A stretch of 39,598 bases of DNA. Source: a virus. The position numbers were made by a program, and so were the translations under genes. Each line of letters starts with the position of its first letter. Position 1 is the stretch's first letter. Of this stretch, positions 10,552 to 22,460 are shown piece after piece. The stretch lies in IMG/VR virus record IMGVR_UViG_3300031787_000319, positions 1-39,598 of that record, one strand, 5' to 3'. The notes under the pieces are model-generated. The model saw nothing but the letters and a program-made list of their open reading frames with translations, made no database searches and had not been told where the DNA came from.

Positions 10552-10610
10552 TAAAATTGCCGAAGAAAGGACTTTTTACCGTGTTGCACGTCCTATGGCA
10601 AAAAACGCCA

Positions 10611-10791
10611 AAAAATTCGTGCATTCGTGCGCTTTGGGGTTAAACCACTCATATACAACAAATTAACGCGCACGAATCGCGCACGAATTCGTACTAGTGC
10701 AGATTCGTGCAGATTCGTGCAAAATTCGTGCGGGGTTAATAAACTGATATACAGCCGTTTACAGAGTGTGCGCACGAATGCACGAATTTTT
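10611..10791. repeat. Iteron-like array of ATTCGTGC motifs in a 22-bp inverted repeat
   Basis: The 8-mer ATTCGTGC occurs five times on the plus strand (from 10615, 10623, 10703, 10713, 10724) and four times on the minus strand (10670-10677, 10681-10688, 10772-10779, 10780-10787). The outermost pairs belong to a perfect 22-bp inverted repeat, 10611-10632 versus 10770-10791. Inside, GGGGTTAAnnnACTSATATACA occurs twice as a direct repeat (10636-10657 and 10732-10753), and ACGAATTCGT at 10683-10692 is a palindrome. The array lies in the 790-bp gap between the late and early clusters. It could be a replication origin or a multi-site operator. The rest of the gap holds the terminator at 11000-11025 and a candidate small gene. 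Confidence 0.75.
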
Positions 10792-10999
10792 TCCTGTTTT
10801 TTACTATAAAGATTTTAAAAAGGGTATAGTAGTAGTATTATAGTATGTATGCCGCGCCATTTCTCATTTTCTTCCAAAACTGCAACTTTGGTGCATTTTC
10901 CTTCCAAACCCCGATTTTGCTTTTTGAACACGCCTGCACTATTTTTCTCGTTACCTAGGTTTGGGGGAAAGGGGGAAAGGCAAGCTGAAAAAAGCAAAA

Positions 11000-11259: not shown

Positions 11260-11604
11260 TCAAGGCACCATCCAAGCAATGCGCTCATACCCGCCACACC
11301 CGGCACCAACACCCATCCAGTAATACCCATCAATGTATACATCGAGGCGGTACCATTTCATAGGCTTACCCTGAGCGCTGATGTACAATGAATCGCCCGG
11401 CGCAGCTAAATACTCATACGAGTACTCTGCGCCCGGCGAAACCATCTGAGTGATGTCTTGGGCTGCTCCGGAGTGAGAAACGCTCACAGCATGCTCACAA
11501 ACGACTTTAAAGCCGATTTTGTGCCGGTTATCCATCGTTTGTTCGTTGCGGCTGCAGCTGGCCACAAACATGGCTGCAAATGCGAAAAGAAGTAGTTGTT
11601 TCAT
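11260..11604 (-). CDS. Small lipoprotein in the DGR operon
   Basis: A 114-residue protein with a typical lipoprotein signal: MKQLLLFAFAAMFVASCS, with a lipobox (VASC) and the lipidated Cys at residue 17. The mature part is beta-rich with a Gly/Cys loop (YWMGVGAGCGGYE). The start overlaps the stop of the Gp37/Gp68 gene (ATGA), so it is coupled to it. Phage lipoproteins often alter the host envelope, for example to exclude superinfecting phages. That role here is inference. Confidence 0.7.
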   Translation of the reverse strand: MKQLLLFAFAAMFVASCSRNEQTMDNRHKIGFKVVCEHAVSVSHSGAAQDITQMVSPGAEYSYEYLAAPGDSLYISAQGKPMKWYRLDVYIDGYYWMGVGAGCGGYERIAWMVP

Positions 11605-12527
11605 AGTTGAGTTATTGATGTGGGCATGTCATTATGTTCGCGGCCGTCGAGCAAGCGGCCGGCTCTGGTTTTTCCAACACGGTAATAGATGTTTTTTTTA
11701 TTCGGATTATGCGGACTCGGGTATTCCTTCGGATAAGCTTTTTGATCTTCAGCAGCCTGGCAATGGGGCAGCAGTTCACCCCATTGTTTGAAAAAGAATG
11801 GCACACCAGATTCTTCGCACTGATCGCGCAGAGAGCGAAACCAATCCGGGTGACTGGGGCGTGGATAGTCTCCCGATTCGCCTCCGGCAATCACCCAATC
11901 AATTCCGGTAGTGTACGGCCAATGTTCTTTGCGCTTGAGATAATTGCTCATATCTACAGCTTCAAGCAGCGGCTCCATGGAAACAAAACGAATCTGTGCC
12001 GGCACTTTCAGCAGCTCAGGCATACGTATTTCTAGTTCCTGCTTATTTTCTATTGTAGTTCCTTGCCAAACATTAACTGGCCAATCTGTAAGCCAGTCAG
12101 ACGGAACCATGCTGAGTACATTGTCAATTCGCTTTGTCAGAAACAAATAATCGAGATAAGGCGTTTCTTTCGTAAGATTGAATAAACGACTACGCTGCTC
12201 ATTCAGCAATTCATTGATGTCGGGATTAACATGACGCTCAAATAAATCAGACATTGAGTTGCAGAACACTTTCAGGCGAATGCCTTTTTTTAAAGCATAG
12301 CGATTCCACACATGCGGTTGCTGCCAATACTTTTCAGATTGCATTTTGCGCGGAGCAAGCAAGCCCCAATGTCCCGGATTAAAACGGTTAGCATTTTGCT
12401 CAGCATAACAGTTCTTGCAAGCGGCTGAAACTTTGTGGCAACCCTGCCACGGGTTAAATGATTTACCCTTCAATACCGTGCCGTCCGGCAGGCGGGTTGC
12501 TGTCCATTCAATGGTTGTTGTGCTCAT
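11601..12527 (-). CDS. Phage Gp37/Gp68 (DUF5131) family protein
   Basis: A 308-residue cytoplasmic protein. The N-terminal region SFNPWQGCHKVSAACKNCYAE, with Cys30, Cys37 and Cys40, is the family hallmark and looks like a metal or iron-sulfur site. Further family blocks are FCNSMSDLFE, LTKRIDNV, WQGTTIENKQ and WVIAGGESG, followed by FFKQWGE near the end. The spacing differs from canonical radical SAM CX3CX2C (here CX6CX2C). The reaction is unknown to me. It is coupled by 4-base overlaps to the genes on both sides. Confidence 0.88.
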   Translation of the reverse strand: MSTTTIEWTATRLPDGTVLKGKSFNPWQGCHKVSAACKNCYAEQNANRFNPGHWGLLAPRKMQSEKYWQQPHVWNRYALKKGIRLKVFCNSMSDLFERHVNPDINELLNEQRSRLFNLTKETPYLDYLFLTKRIDNVLSMVPSDWLTDWPVNVWQGTTIENKQELEIRMPELLKVPAQIRFVSMEPLLEAVDMSNYLKRKEHWPYTTGIDWVIAGGESGDYPRPSHPDWFRSLRDQCEESGVPFFFKQWGELLPHCQAAEDQKAYPKEYPSPHNPNKKNIYYRVGKTRAGRLLDGREHNDMPTSITQL

Positions 12528-12820
12528 GTAAATAAGTATCTCTCGTTATCACTGATGATGGTTGTTGTAAATGGAAAATTCTTTTCCGGAACTTGGCGAA
12601 TTGTTTGAATCAAATACTTCGATCCGGTAAACAATACCCGCTTTTCACCGTTCAAAACAATTTGCAGATACAGGCATTCGCCAGAGGCATCTTGCTTTGA
12701 TGGTTTGATTTCAAACCGGTGCACTTCTATTGGCCGATTGAGCACGTAACTGATTTTTATTTTTTCGCCGACCATTCCTTTTTCTGGCGGCGCAATAGCC
12801 ATTTCGTTGAATGCAATCAT
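12524..12820 (-). CDS. DGR-associated small protein (candidate RT accessory factor)
   Basis: A 98-residue beta-rich protein directly downstream of the reverse transcriptase. Its frame overlaps the RT end by 110 bases, or 65 if the internal Met of MVGEKIKISYV is used. Segments such as EVHRFEIKPSKQ, LYLQIVLNGEKRVLFTGS and FPFTTTI look like a compact OB- or PH-like beta domain. I recall similar short ORFs next to DGR-type RTs in Bacteroidota elements. No Avd-type four-helix accessory protein is visible, so this protein may take that place. That function is inference. Confidence 0.72.
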   Translation of the reverse strand: MIAFNEMAIAPPEKGMVGEKIKISYVLNRPIEVHRFEIKPSKQDASGECLYLQIVLNGEKRVLFTGSKYLIQTIRQVPEKNFPFTTTIISDNERYLFT

Positions 12821-13766
12821 GAGTTATTTTTTTAACCAGATGGCGCGTTTTGGCATGGGCCATCCAACCCATATAAGAGGCGAATGATTTTTCATCATTT
12901 CGCTTCATTGCCATTCTGGCGAAGTTTTGTTTTATAGATTTTCTGATGCCGATGTGTGTGTGATAAATGCGGTAGCCTACAAAGTCAATACCTCTTGAGG
13001 CTACCGGAAAAACCTGATAAGTTGATTTTACTTCCAGTTTTAATTCTTGCTTCAGATAGCTGCGAATACTTGAAAGCAGCTGGTGGAGCTCTTGTTTTGT
13101 TCTTGCGAGAATAACAATATCATCCGCATATCTGAAGTAGTACTTTACCATCAGCGTTTGCTTTACCCAGTGATCGAATCCTGACAAATAAAAATTAGCC
13201 AGGTATTGACTCAGGTAATTACCAATGGGCAATCCATTCGCACTGTCAATAATTTCATCGAGCAGCCACAGCAGATCTTTGTCTTTAATTTTTCTGCGCA
13301 ACAACGCTTTCAGAACATCATGATCAACCGATGGATAAAACTTACGGATGTCTAATTTTAAGCAGTACTGAGTATTGCTTATGTCCCGAAGCGCACGTTC
13401 AACAGCTCTAAGAGCAGCGTGTATGCCTCTACCTTTAATGCAGCTGTAAGTATCTGCAGTAAATCCGGCCACAAACATAGGTTCAAGCACATTCATGATG
13501 GCATGATGGGTGATCCTGTCCGGAAAGTAGGGTAAGCGATATACTTCCCTTTCCTTCGGCTCATGAATGATGAATGTGGTGTACGCTGATGTGCGGTAAG
13601 CGCGGGTATAAAGCTGTAAGTGCAGCTGCTTCAAATTTTCATCAGCATTCAAATCATGTTTCTGAATGCCCGGCTGATGCCGTTTACCCTTTCGAGCAAT
13701 CGCATCAGCACGCTGCAAGTTTTCAAGACTGATCACTGAGGGATAAAGATTGCCGATTCGTTTCAT
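12711..13766 (-). CDS. DGR reverse transcriptase
   Basis: A 351-residue reverse transcriptase of the retron/DGR class. Motifs in order: RGIHAA at 113-118, LDIRKFYPSVDHD at 138-150 (metal Asp139), GLPIGNYLSQYLAN at 178-191, and YADD at 213-216. The IGxxxSQ form of domain 4, where most RTs have QGxxxSP, is the DGR signature. A basic C-terminal tail (ARKRNGRRKNKN) could bind template RNA. No maturase or endonuclease domain is present. It makes cDNA from the TR transcript with errors at adenines, to be written into the variable genes. The TR lies 115 bases upstream. Confidence 0.95.
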   Translation of the reverse strand: MKRIGNLYPSVISLENLQRADAIARKGKRHQPGIQKHDLNADENLKQLHLQLYTRAYRTSAYTTFIIHEPKEREVYRLPYFPDRITHHAIMNVLEPMFVAGFTADTYSCIKGRGIHAALRAVERALRDISNTQYCLKLDIRKFYPSVDHDVLKALLRRKIKDKDLLWLLDEIIDSANGLPIGNYLSQYLANFYLSGFDHWVKQTLMVKYYFRYADDIVILARTKQELHQLLSSIRSYLKQELKLEVKSTYQVFPVASRGIDFVGYRIYHTHIGIRKSIKQNFARMAMKRNDEKSFASYMGWMAHAKTRHLVKKITHDCIQRNGYCAARKRNGRRKNKNQLRAQSANRSAPV

Positions 13767-13881
13767 GGCCTTTTCATTACACGTCCGTTTTGCTTTAGAT
13801 CAGCGACTAAGGCCGTGAGTGTATTCGTGATTTTTTGCCCTGTTGGCAAGGTCTGCATTGCAAAAAGAGTATATGAAAGAT

Positions 13882-13950
13882 GGGCACTGACGTTCGTGTT
13901 CGTGTAGTTGTAATTCGTGTTCTGAAACCCGAAACCACTCGCGGCAGCAC
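13882..13950 (-). repeat. DGR template repeat (TR)
   Basis: A non-coding copy of the variable repeat lies between the stop of the first variable gene and the RT start. Read on the minus strand its core is a run of AAC/ACG/AAT/TAC codons holding 15 adenines. Aligned with the three variable repeats, all 26 core substitutions occur at these adenines, the hallmark of DGR mutagenesis. The TR has two tandem TTCGTG units (plus-strand reading) where the variable repeats have three, so it is 6 bp shorter. Two further adenines (AGT codons near each end) are G in all three targets. The one near the 3' boundary may be the IMH/IMH* difference. Confidence 0.93.
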
Positions 13951-13972
13951 AAGCAATGCACCACCCTATTCT

Positions 13973-14392
13973 TTATTGCTCATCCAGTGGAATCAGCATG
14001 GTATCTACCAGCAGTTGCCTGAAGTGAGTGAACATGTGTTCGACAAGTTCAACATCACGTAACAAAAGGCGGGCACCGACGTTCGCGCGCGTGAGCGTGT
14101 AGGAGTAATACGCGTCCTGAAACCCGAAACCACCCGCGGCAGCACTATCTTCGCCCGGCCATACCCATGGATAAAATTTGAGCTGTGAGCCATCGTTAAA
14201 ATTTGGAATCCAGCGCGGCGATTTTGGTTTGTAGGCTTTATTTAAAGCCTCTACTACTATTGCGCGCTTGTAGTTGCCGGTGGTGAATGCCTTCAGGCGT
14301 TCCGGGAGCATTGACACATCGGGCAATGCATTGGGATCAACGCCTACCAATTTGGCGGCAGCTTCCCAGCTGGTAATTTTCTTGTAACTCAT
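13973..14392 (-). CDS. DGR variable protein 1
   Basis: A 139-residue target protein. The N-terminal part (TSWEAAAKLVGVDPNALPDVS, then a helix KRAIVVEALNKAYK) leads to FYPWVWPGEDSAAAGGFGFQ. The variable segment follows at about 93-106, and the protein ends after VGARLLLRDVELVEHMFTHF. It has no signal peptide or membrane segment. The layout resembles a widespread Bacteroidota phage/ICE family with a YYPWF...VGSRLCFKS ending (from memory). The variable residues are D, A, Y, S, T, L, R, A and N, at AAY/ACG template positions. The stop lies 23 bases from the TR edge. Function unknown; ligand binding by the variable loop is inference. Confidence 0.88.
   Translation of the reverse strand: MSYKKITSWEAAAKLVGVDPNALPDVSMLPERLKAFTTGNYKRAIVVEALNKAYKPKSPRWIPNFNDGSQLKFYPWVWPGEDSAAAGGFGFQDAYYSYTLTRANVGARLLLRDVELVEHMFTHFRQLLVDTMLIPLDEQ
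14071..14145 (-). repeat. Variable repeat VR1
   Basis: A 75-bp copy of the DGR repeat inside variable gene 1. Against the TR it shows 9 core substitutions, every one at a template adenine, and one extra 6-bp unit. Homology stops sharply at GCGGCAGCA on one side and GGGCAC on the other. Confidence 0.92.
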
Positions 14393-14404
14393 GTTGTTTA
14401 TTAA

Positions 14405-14881
14405 TTAAGCGATTAATTCTTTGTTGATAAGATCAATGAATGTTTCGCCGAAGAAACGGGCTTTCTCTTCGCTTAAAAAACTGCGGCGGGCACCGACGCG
14501 CGTGCGCGTGAACGCGTAGTGGTAATTCGTGCGCTGAAACCCGAAACCACCCGCGGCAGCACCATATTGAAACCACGGACACCACTTTTTCTGATCGCTA
14601 TTGGAGTAATCAATTGGCGCATCATTGCCACGGATAGCATCACAGATCAGGTCAAGGTAAATAGTGGTTTGTAAGCGCTCCTGATAGCCATCTGGCGCAT
14701 TATTCACCTTTACTTCTACTTCCGATTCTGTGAGGCCATGATAGCGAAGTGCATCATCAAGCGTTGTAATTGTTCTCCAGTCGTGGAATACTTTCGGGAA
14801 TAATTCCTCAAGCACCTTGCGCTGTACCGGGAGAGCATCATGGTGGATTTCTGCGATTTCTTTAAATGTGATTGTGCTCAT
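14405..14881 (-). CDS. DGR variable protein 2
   Basis: A 158-residue target protein adjacent to variable protein 1. It shares the KKWCPWFQYGAAAGGFGFQ lead-in, the variable segment (R, T, N, H, A, F, R, T and R at varied positions), and VGARRSFLSEEKARFFGETF. The N-terminal half differs from proteins 1 and 3 and is helical (EIAEIHHDALPVQRKVLEEL). I chose the internal Met (MSTITFKEI) because the longer frame runs into the methyltransferase gene region. No signal peptide. Three different N-terminal halves on a shared variable C-terminal module suggest different anchors or partners. Confidence 0.88.
   Translation of the reverse strand: MSTITFKEIAEIHHDALPVQRKVLEELFPKVFHDWRTITTLDDALRYHGLTESEVEVKVNNAPDGYQERLQTTIYLDLICDAIRGNDAPIDYSNSDQKKWCPWFQYGAAAGGFGFQRTNYHYAFTRTRVGARRSFLSEEKARFFGETFIDLINKELIA
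14488..14562 (-). repeat. Variable repeat VR2
   Basis: A 75-bp DGR repeat inside variable gene 2, with 8 core substitutions relative to the TR, all at template adenines, and the same extra 6-bp unit as VR1 and VR3. Confidence 0.92.
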
Positions 14882-14909: not shown

Positions 14910-16610
14910 TTAAGCGGCCGCACGAATTGCGCGGCTGAGTGTACGGGCCATATGTTGTGGAATGACTGGGTGTACCATATTACCGATCATCCACTTTTGT
15001 TTTGACTGATTTCCGGCAAGAACGTACTGCACTGGCAATCCCATGATCTGCTTGAGTTCATCAACTTTCAGCATCCGCATGGTGATGCGCACAATGCCAT
15101 ACATCGCCATGAATTGTTTGATCTTCACCGTGGCCGGGCTGTCAGTCTCATACACCGCAATGGCTACCTGCCCGGTTTCGGTAGTCACTACGTACAGCGG
15201 TGCTTTATCCTGCCGGGCAACTACCGTGCAGCAGGGCTGATCGACTGAGCCGGGATTGCCTCCCCACGATGGATTGACGATGTATTGATGGCGGCGGCTG
15301 GCAAGTATGGTTGGTGCTGGTTGATCGACACTGGTGCCGTAATTGTTGTAGGTGTGATTAATCAGAAACGCATTCACCAGATTCTTTTTCGGCACGGTAG
15401 CCAGAGAGCCGCAGGGTTCATCGGCGCTGCTATGGTTGTGGTCGCCGCTGCCGAATTGCGAATCAATCCAGTGTGCCTGTACTGAGGCAAGTGCATCTGC
15501 GGCGGCAACAGTCGGAGCCGGGCGATCTGTGGCCGTACAGTTGTGGCCGTTGCCGTGATAGGCCGAAAGAAACACCGCGGCAAGGCGCGGCTGCGCAGTA
15601 ATTACCGGCGCGGGTACATTTACCCCGGCACCGACAGAAACGCCCGTCTGAGGCGAATTGCTAAGGTATTTCACAAGAAATCCGGGTTGCACCAAATACT
15701 GATGGCAAGTAGTGGTAAGGCTACCAGTAACGGTTTCGACAGATGAACATTTACTGGCCGGATGGCCGCTGTTCATCTTCATAACAAATGCCTCATGCGC
15801 AGCTTTGCCACCGGCCACGTACTTCATCAGCCCGGCGTAAATGCGCTCCAGTGTTTTTTCGCTCAGGGCTTTATCACGCTCGAAAATGTCCTTGCCGATG
15901 TCTTCGAGATCAAGCACTTCACGCACAGCTTTCCATTTCCGCAGGGCGTGGCTGAATAGCCCGCCAGATTGCGGATTTTTCGCGTGTGTTGGTTCCGGCC
16001 ACACAATAGGCAGACCGTGTTTTGCGAATATTGCAAAGTACCTGGTTCGTGATGTGTATGCACCAAAGTCGGCTGAATTGAGTAACCTGTGCTCGTAGTC
16101 GAATCCGCAAGCCTTCACATTGTTCACCCAGCGCATGAAGTCGGTGCCTTCGTGTCGGCTGATCGGTTTGCCACTATCATCAAGTGGCCCCCAGCACATA
16201 AACTCTTCCACGTTTTCAATCATTACAAAATCGGGCTGCAGCGATTCAATGTACCTGAACAAGTGATCTGCCAGTGTGCGGCTGTCTGCATCGCGTGGCT
16301 GACCACCTTTTGCCCGGGAAAAATTCGTGCATTCAAGCGATGCCCAAAGCACTATTTTGGCAGCAGTGTACCGACGCTGCATTCGCTCAACATGTCTCAC
16401 CAGTGGACCGAGTTGTAAGGTTCGGATGTCCTCAGTGAAGTGCAGCACAGACTTGTGGTTTGCACTGTGTGAACTGATGGCAAATTCATCATGGTTAACA
16501 CAGGCAATCACCTTCGCAACTCGGTTGCGGCCGATGCGGGCTTTCTCAAAGCCGGTGGTAGTTCCACCGGCACCGCAAAAGAGATCAATTACAAGAAAAT
16601 TAGGGTTCAT
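14910..16610 (-). CDS. DNA cytosine-5 methyltransferase
   Basis: A 566-residue enzyme that methylates cytosine in DNA using SAM. Motif I is DLFCGAGG at 9-16. The motif IV catalytic Cys94 lies in SLECTNFSRAKGG, with an ECT variant instead of PCQ, as often in phage enzymes. Motif VI is ENV at 132-134 and motif VIII is SRTRYFAIF. Motif X is GNMVHPVIPQHMARTL near the end. The long region before motif IX repeats a D-x-P-x-x-T element several times (DRPAPTV, DEPCGSL, DQPAPTI, DQPCCTV), an unusual target-recognition domain. It lies between the ASCH gene and the DGR and probably protects phage DNA from host restriction. I used MNPNFLVIDL as start. Confidence 0.93.
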   Translation of the reverse strand: MNPNFLVIDLFCGAGGTTTGFEKARIGRNRVAKVIACVNHDEFAISSHSANHKSVLHFTEDIRTLQLGPLVRHVERMQRRYTAAKIVLWASLECTNFSRAKGGQPRDADSRTLADHLFRYIESLQPDFVMIENVEEFMCWGPLDDSGKPISRHEGTDFMRWVNNVKACGFDYEHRLLNSADFGAYTSRTRYFAIFAKHGLPIVWPEPTHAKNPQSGGLFSHALRKWKAVREVLDLEDIGKDIFERDKALSEKTLERIYAGLMKYVAGGKAAHEAFVMKMNSGHPASKCSSVETVTGSLTTTCHQYLVQPGFLVKYLSNSPQTGVSVGAGVNVPAPVITAQPRLAAVFLSAYHGNGHNCTATDRPAPTVAAADALASVQAHWIDSQFGSGDHNHSSADEPCGSLATVPKKNLVNAFLINHTYNNYGTSVDQPAPTILASRRHQYIVNPSWGGNPGSVDQPCCTVVARQDKAPLYVVTTETGQVAIAVYETDSPATVKIKQFMAMYGIVRITMRMLKVDELKQIMGLPVQYVLAGNQSKQKWMIGNMVHPVIPQHMARTLSRAIRAAA

Positions 16611-16618
16611 AATCTGTT

Positions 16619-17128
16619 TCAGTTTTTTGATTTCTCCCAACACCCAAAATCAGCACAGGCATCCGGCATGTTACATTTATCACACTCCTGAAATTCAACA
16701 GTATCATCAGCTACAGGCTTAGTAGCAACAGCAACCAACTTCCAACCAATCATCCGACCGGAAAAAGGAAGCCCGTACATTTTTTTAAACCATGCCACCA
16801 TTGCCTGATAGTCTTCAAATCCATCACGCCGGGCGATAAAATCCGCAAGTCGTTCACCGGGCTTTTTACCAGCCAAAACAAGATCACGCAAACCAATTTC
16901 ATAAGACAGTATAAAATCACGTTCATCATTCGCAATAGTGATCTCAGCAGTAAATGTGCACTGCGCATCAGAAAGATGTTTACAGCTGCTGGTGCGCTGA
17001 CCGGTGTATAAAAAAAGCTTATCCCCAACGGCTATTGGCTTACGTTTACCAACGGCACGAATCGTTGTTGTTTTTTGGCCTAAGGCTACAGCCTGGGCAA
17101 ACTGCTTTTGAAAATTAAGTGCAGGCAT
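16619..17128 (-). CDS. ASCH-domain protein with C-terminal Cys cluster
   Basis: A 169-residue protein. The first 90 residues, with LGQKTTTIRAVGKRKPIAVG and DKLFLYTGQRT, match the ASCH (PUA-like) fold, which binds RNA or modified nucleotides; some members are nucleases or N4-acetylcytidine amidohydrolases. The end has CDKCNMPDACADFGCW, a probable zinc site absent from minimal ASCH proteins. It sits 8 bases upstream of the methyltransferase, so a role with nucleic-acid modification is reasonable. Substrate unknown. Confidence 0.8.
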   Translation of the reverse strand: MPALNFQKQFAQAVALGQKTTTIRAVGKRKPIAVGDKLFLYTGQRTSSCKHLSDAQCTFTAEITIANDERDFILSYEIGLRDLVLAGKKPGERLADFIARRDGFEDYQAMVAWFKKMYGLPFSGRMIGWKLVAVATKPVADDTVEFQECDKCNMPDACADFGCWEKSKN

Positions 17129-21796: not shown

Positions 21797-22026
21797 TCTT
21801 CTACAGATTTTAAGTTTCGTTTGGCAGTAGCCAAAAGCTGCTGCGTGTAGGATTGTGATTTGATATTGGCAAGGGAAGCTTCTTCCCGCTGCCAAGTGAG
21901 CACACCACGCTGCTCAGAAGCAGGTAAATCAGCAATGGACAGCTTCACTTCAGCAAAAGCCGCATGCAGCTTTTGCTGAAGCTCCACAATCACCGCTACC
22001 TGTGAGAGTATCACATCTCGATGCAT
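21793..22026 (-). CDS. Hypothetical small coiled-coil protein
   Basis: A 77-residue protein, almost entirely helical, with a coiled-coil-like first half (VAVIVELQQKLHAAFAEVKL). Its ATG overlaps the stop of variable gene 3 and its stop overlaps the start of the next gene, so three genes are translationally coupled. It could be a partner of variable protein 3. That is inferred from coupling alone. Confidence 0.6.
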   Translation of the reverse strand: MHRDVILSQVAVIVELQQKLHAAFAEVKLSIADLPASEQRGVLTWQREEASLANIKSQSYTQQLLATAKRNLKSVEE

Positions 22027-22460
22027 CAGGCAGTAGTATTGGGTGCTATAACCATTGTATCAATAAGCACTTGACGGAAGTACTTAATCATGTGAATCAC
22101 CAATTTTTCATCGCGAAGCAAAAGGCGGGCACCGACGGCCGTGTGCGTGAGCGAGTAGTAGTAAGACGTGCGCTGAAACCCGAAACCACCCGCGGCAGCA
22201 GCATCAGCACCCGGCCAAACCCACGGGTAGTATTTATATTCAGAATCATTATCAAAATCCGGCACCCAGCGCGGTTCATCTTCATGGCCCACTTTATTAA
22301 GTGCCTGACAAATAATAGCGCGCACGGGCATGCCCAATGTAAACGCCTGCAATTCCTCCGGCATCCGAGACACATCAGGCAGCGTACTGAGGTCAAAGCC
22401 TATAAATTCAGCGCAAGCTTCCAGAGTCGTTAAATCAGAGAGTTTCTTTTTCTTTTTCAT
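22026..22460 (-). CDS. DGR variable protein 3 (remote target)
   Basis: A 144-residue target protein about 8 kb upstream of the TR. Its order matches variable protein 1: KLSDLTTLEACAEFIGFDLS, LPDVSRMPEELQAFTLG, RAIICQALNK, then YKYYPWVWPGADAAAAGGFGFQ, the variable segment and VGARLLLRDEKLVIHMIKYF. Proteins 1 and 3 are therefore recent paralogues. It begins with a basic MKKKKK stretch and has no signal peptide. It lies directly behind the Cro-like switch, separating it from the RT cassette. Confidence 0.88.
   Translation of the reverse strand: MKKKKKLSDLTTLEACAEFIGFDLSTLPDVSRMPEELQAFTLGMPVRAIICQALNKVGHEDEPRWVPDFDNDSEYKYYPWVWPGADAAAAGGFGFQRTSYYYSLTHTAVGARLLLRDEKLVIHMIKYFRQVLIDTMVIAPNTTA
22127..22201 (-). 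repeat. Variable repeat VR3
   Basis: A 75-bp DGR repeat inside variable gene 3, with 9 core substitutions from the TR, all at template adenines, and the extra 6-bp unit. The flank GCAAAAGGCGGGC is shared with VR1, showing gene duplication beyond the repeat itself. Confidence 0.92.

Follow-up and report, generated by a model that had tools for sequence, protein, structure and literature searches.

The 39,598-base virus record IMG/VR IMGVR_UViG_3300031787_000319 (here called the window) carries a diversity-generating retroelement (DGR) that is best read, at a probability of about 95%, as an Avd-less 'target-TR-RT' DGR in a temperate tailed phage of Bacteroidota. On the minus strand, the order of transcription is target 3, then primase, methylase and other genes, target 2, target 1, the template repeat (TR), a spacer, the reverse transcriptase (RT) and a 98-aa open reading frame (ORF), and the cassette is positioned between capsid and replication genes. 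The terminase-, portal-, protease-, tape-measure- and integrase-like genes of the record indicate a temperate tailed phage which, as judged from the relatives of its RT, belongs with Bacteroidota, the nearest being a prophage of Paraflavitalea (Chitinophagaceae). At the nucleotide level no phage relatives were found; 10 viral contigs sharing a 17-mer of the TR core were rejected as near relatives, being chance matches that harbour neither RT nor target.

Elsewhere in the record, an intergenic 39-nt inverted repeat (10594-10808; 87% complementary) is rich in GCACGAAT / ATTCGTGC words. A C5 cytosine methylase is encoded at 14910-16643 (minus strand), with residues ~235-510 outside the best match of the Pfam model, and a DUF5131 protein (11601-12527, minus strand), weakly similar to radical SAM mobile pair protein A, adjoins the cassette.

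Differences between TR and VRs concentrate on template adenines

The TR (13882-13950; 69 nt, 18 adenines) is non-coding and lies within a 206-nt gap between ORFs (13767-13972), while all three VRs, likewise on the minus strand, are positioned inside ORFs: (i) VR1 (14071-14145) in target 1 (13973-14392; 139 aa), where a predicted C-terminal helix follows it; (ii) VR2 (14488-14562) in target 2 (14405-14881; 158 aa from ATG, or 172 aa from a GTG at 14923); (iii) VR3 (22127-22201) in target 3 (22026-22460; 144 aa), which is closest to target 1 (53% identity). The non-coding TR and two adjacent VRs of the preliminary description are thus present where it had placed them, and VR3 is remote, ~8 kb upstream; the span originally flagged (13882-14562) reaches only from TR to VR2.

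Using an alignment with one 6-nt gap in the TR, 9, 10 and 13 mismatches were found between the TR and VR1, VR2 and VR3, of which 9, 10 and 12, respectively, fall on TR adenines (hypergeometric P 8.6e-7, 1.3e-7 and 2.5e-8), or 31 of 32 when pooled. The preliminary description had counted 9, 8 and 9 differences, all on adenines and none elsewhere; the adenine pattern stands, yet the counts do not, and VR3 has one mismatch at a non-adenine. Pairwise differences among the VRs, which are counted without the TR and therefore constitute a test independent of its gap, also fall on TR-adenine sites (11/11, 10/11 and 8/9). With the same script, adenine-specific TR/VR pairs were recovered at the same place upstream of the RT in most relatives, and in 76 of 85 loci that had been retrieved independently of TR and RT.

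Mutation within the repeat would give many residues and no stop codons, as the TR codons are mostly AAY. Among TR/VR pairs of the small-target clade (described below), the second adenine of AAC was changed to C in 2% of cases versus 20% for AAT at comparable codon positions, a deficit (P 7e-4, stratified) that is in part confounded by position and runs opposite to the context effect of the BPP-1 RT. The rates differ even though AAC and AAT give the same amino acids.

Fixed 3' differences and a TR shorter than the VRs

Not all adenine differences appear random. TR adenines A12 (in CGAG) and A69 (in GTCAG), together with an adenine 7 nt past A69 that lies immediately beyond the 3' end of the aligned repeat, read G in every one of the three VRs. 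Among relatives, the A69-equivalent site is A in the TR and G in the VR in 106 of 108 TR/VR pairs, the +7 site in 108 of 108, and a third 3' site (position 11) is A in the TR and T in the VR in 87 of 87, though CTA and CTT are synonymous. Being constant in relatives, the GTCAG and +7 adenines are taken as fixed IMH*/IMH-like differences and not as products of random mutagenesis; in the window, as in an IMH/IMH* pair, matching 3' ends are combined with fixed differing sites.

A related observation concerns sequence context. In the TRs of relatives (L005-L080, L105-L183), the adenine of CAG before G, T or C is nearly always G in the VRs, while that of CAGA is not; CAG-context sites in the flanks are G in 154 of 164 cases, and fourfold-degenerate codon sites in 41 of 41. 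CAG-to-CGG changes are also seen inside the tract of tail-target DGRs (for example, in GCAGGC). Either a context effect of the RT or sites that are not copied could cause this pattern. A rule that CAG always becomes CGG was not adopted, as CAGAAC in the window stays CAG in 3/3 VRs and CAGG is kept in some distant DGRs.

The TR contains two ACGAAC units, versus three in every VR, and is thus 6 nt shorter, so that only a 56-nt core of TR and VRs aligns without a gap. Because the spacing from GF to VG(A/S)R in all three VRs equals the family norm, the TR most likely lost one unit after the present VRs were made. The VRs now in the window would then derive from a longer ancestral TR; all of them fit a template with one more 6-nt unit, so that no trace of homing from the current TR can be seen. 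Among all loci checked, a TR/VR length mismatch occurs elsewhere only in the L023/L024/L028 lineage, where one VR of three (V1) is 6 nt longer. The 'active or recently active' state proposed at the outset is thus supported only in part, as the VRs all fit a longer TR; from these sequences, recent activity of the DGR is plausible.

The main alternative as to its present state, compatible with DGR identity, is a stalled or decaying DGR, its TR having lost one unit, the 3' end of the TR having drifted and its VRs being fossils of earlier activity. The shorter TR, a mismatch of a rare kind, and a TR 3' end of CCCATCTTTC in place of the family's TCACCTATGC speak for such decay, yet RT and partner ORF are intact, 9 of 10 spacer pairs are kept, and the 6-nt loss is in frame and would only shorten a loop by two residues; we consider decay unlikely, though with an appreciable chance of being correct. 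Alternatively, the deletion itself could be an artefact of assembly or of a population consensus in the tandem ACGAAC repeat, as the record is an IMG/VR contig and the difference is exactly one tandem unit. However, the VRs, with the same type of repeat, were assembled at full length, and almost every other contig has a TR and VRs of equal length, which makes an artefact improbable. A gain of 6 nt by the VRs through RT slippage in homing, instead of a loss from the TR, is more doubtful still: the BPP-1 RT is reported to slip in multiples of three within AAC repeats (PMC12875486), but the three VRs are equal in length, and the distance between their conserved F and V residues is the one usual in the family.

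The RT is of the DGR type

The RT (12711-13766, minus strand; 351 aa) harbours YADD and, in agreement with the IGxxxSQ form of domain 4 reported earlier, IGNYLSQ, which fits the [IVL]GxxxSQ of DGR RTs. It matches RVT_1 at 4e-21, and its best solved relative in the PDB is the BPP-1 DGR RT (8ub7; E 1e-44), whereas group II-like RTs reach 3e-19 at best. In a 40-row tree, the analysis by which the preliminary description had proposed to judge the RT, it grouped with the DGR RTs of BPP-1, Ideonella, ANMV-1 and crAss, its sister group including DGRs of crAss-like phages, while group II RTs were split off at 100/100. An RT of another class (group II intron, retron or antiviral DRT) with repeats that are unrelated duplications is scarcely credible: in its favour, library models of those RTs do score weakly, but the NCBIfam scores are far below curated cut-offs (group_II_RT_mat, 123.9 bits versus a cut-off of 300), the motif is IGNYLSQ instead of QGxxxSP, the tree is DGR-type and the adenine pattern would be left unexplained. 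The proposed DGR identity was therefore confirmed, by the position of the RT on the DGR side of the tree together with the adenine-specific differences, the non-coding TR, the VRs inside ORFs and the structured spacer.

Avd was not found in the record: both PF22296 and PF05635 are absent, with PF22296 positive in the BPP-1 and Ideonella controls. About a quarter of DGRs are without an accessory homologue (PMC7290462). The RT is ~30 aa longer than in close relatives because their stop codon is absent.

A structured RNA is conserved in the spacer

The spacer between the TR and the RT start (13768-13862, minus strand) is predicted to form two hairpins. The structure of the clade comprises 10 pairs in 23 sequences, with compensatory changes in 10/10 pairs and 95% of cells paired, and its covariation is 0.686, versus 0.06-0.14 for slid structures. 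A covariance model built without the window matched the window spacer (59.5 bits; E 3e-12) as its sole match in 39.6 kb, where 9 of the 10 pairs are kept. The model also matched 34 of 34 further loci tested and many tail-target and crAss DGRs, with no match in ANMV-1; no match to the spacer was found in Rfam. The folded spacer of BPP-1 recruits bRT-Avd and is the source of the priming adenine (PMC12875486); by analogy, the window spacer may play a similar role.

A 98-aa protein accompanies the RT

Downstream of the RT, a 98-aa ORF (12524-12820, minus strand) overlaps the RT end by a few nt in relatives and by 110 nt in the window, where the RT lost its usual stop. Its conservation is at the protein level, with differences of 0.20, 0.13 and 0.54 across the three codon positions, and it belongs to phrog_19665, a family of unknown function; no relatives were found in PDB or Pfam. 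Scanning viral contigs with the window's own 98-aa sequence gave nothing, while a tighter alignment of the protein alone gave 80 loci, in 78 of which a DGR RT is located directly upstream and ends at its start. The remaining two are L159, cut by the contig end, and L158, a DGR whose RT is deleted. At L158:3300-4400, TR, two VRs, spacer and the 98-aa gene remain, whereas an in-frame deletion reaching from the first RT codons to the partner gene has removed the RT.

The protein was matched in 6 of 395 Bacteroidota genomes, with a DGR RT within ~1 kb in 6/6, and in 2 of 50,697 phage records, ANMV-1 and vir525, both archaeal viruses, in which the homologue follows or overlaps a DGR RT. It is absent near the BPP-1, Ideonella and LBR48 cassettes and from the vicinity (within 3 kb) of two crAss cassettes, in which respect BPP-1 and crAss differ from the window. 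In the literature consulted, the DGR accessory proteins named are Avd, HRDC and MSL (PMC10053308). The odds seem evenly balanced that the 98-aa protein is an undescribed DGR accessory that replaces Avd in a large branch extending from Bacteroidota phages to archaeal viruses, in conjunction with the spacer RNA in the Bacteroidota branch. By analogy with Avd and Sp of BPP-1, partner and spacer probably serve the RT.

Relatives form a small-target subclade

Approximately 110 relatives revealed a distinct subclade, in which a short TR goes with two or three small targets of non-tail type that carry internal VRs, with a structured RNA and with a ~98-aa protein abutting the RT. Relatives with RT identity above ~55% resemble the window: their TR measures ~57-86 nt and most of them have two or three targets, each 114-185 aa long, with the VR near 60% of the ORF and a conserved helix-forming tail after it. 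Below ~55%, relatives have one target of ~420-950 aa with a C-terminal VR and a TR of ~115 nt, the target being 320-490 aa long in the most distant ones. Border cases are L026 (55%; a single 475-aa target) and L071 (57%; a single 313-aa ORF).

Neighbours of the small-target cassettes include methylases, HNH endonucleases, primase, helicase, anti-repressor and terminase, and tail families are absent among their most frequently matched neighbour families. As the targets are sited among replication and methylase genes and not among tail genes, their binding partner is probably not, or not solely, the adsorption receptor. AlphaFold models of targets 1 and 2 have a mean pLDDT of 82-83, with confident N-terminal helices and low confidence in the VR region; Foldseek with these models, whose VR region is of that low confidence, returned no PDB match that would assign the VR domain to the C-type lectin fold of DGR targets or to another fold. 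No hairpin was found 3' of the VRs in the window, and in the clade 4 of 54 VRs had one at p<=0.05, no more than chance.

Comparison with known systems and a proposed mechanism

The window and the BPP-1 DGR share RT class, TR/VR logic, a structured TR-RT spacer and IMH*/IMH-like fixed 3' differences, and a second (remote) VR is annotated in the BPP-1 record as well. However, BPP-1 has Avd, a 134-nt TR and a tail-protein target with a C-terminal VR and a hairpin after it, whereas the window has no Avd, a 69-nt TR and small targets with internal VRs lacking that hairpin. The DGRs of crAss-like phages, as far as the account in PMC7290462 goes, form lineage 3 of Wu et al. 2018, with target-TR-RT order and no avd. 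By its order, its lack of avd and the grouping of its RT with the crAss LMMB RT, the window would fit lineage 3; RT identity to crAss-like DGRs is ~50-53% and the spacer RNA matches, yet in their cassettes the TR is longer and the single large tail target carries its VR at the C-terminus. Two-target phage DGRs with tentaclins (PMC10743442) also serve more than one target per TR, but with Avd present and receptor-binding (tail) targets. The DGR of the archaeal virus ANMV-1 (PMC4372165) has the 98-aa homologue directly after the RT, although its RT is distant (36%) and its target, adtA, is large.

The following mechanism is proposed. The RT would bind a transcript carrying TR and structured spacer, possibly together with the 98-aa partner, and would make cDNA with errors opposite template adenines. 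This cDNA would then replace the matching stretch in the three small target genes, between conserved flanks with the IMH at the 3' end.

The cassette itself is of low novelty, since Avd-less and multi-target DGRs are already known, and the partner protein is the new lead. The window would add another phage to those that rewrite proteins of their own, its targets being unlike tail fibres. Two questions arise from its family: how DGRs work without Avd, where the constantly linked 98-aa protein and the spacer RNA offer concrete candidates, and what advantage a phage may draw from the hypermutation of small proteins whose genes lie among those for replication.
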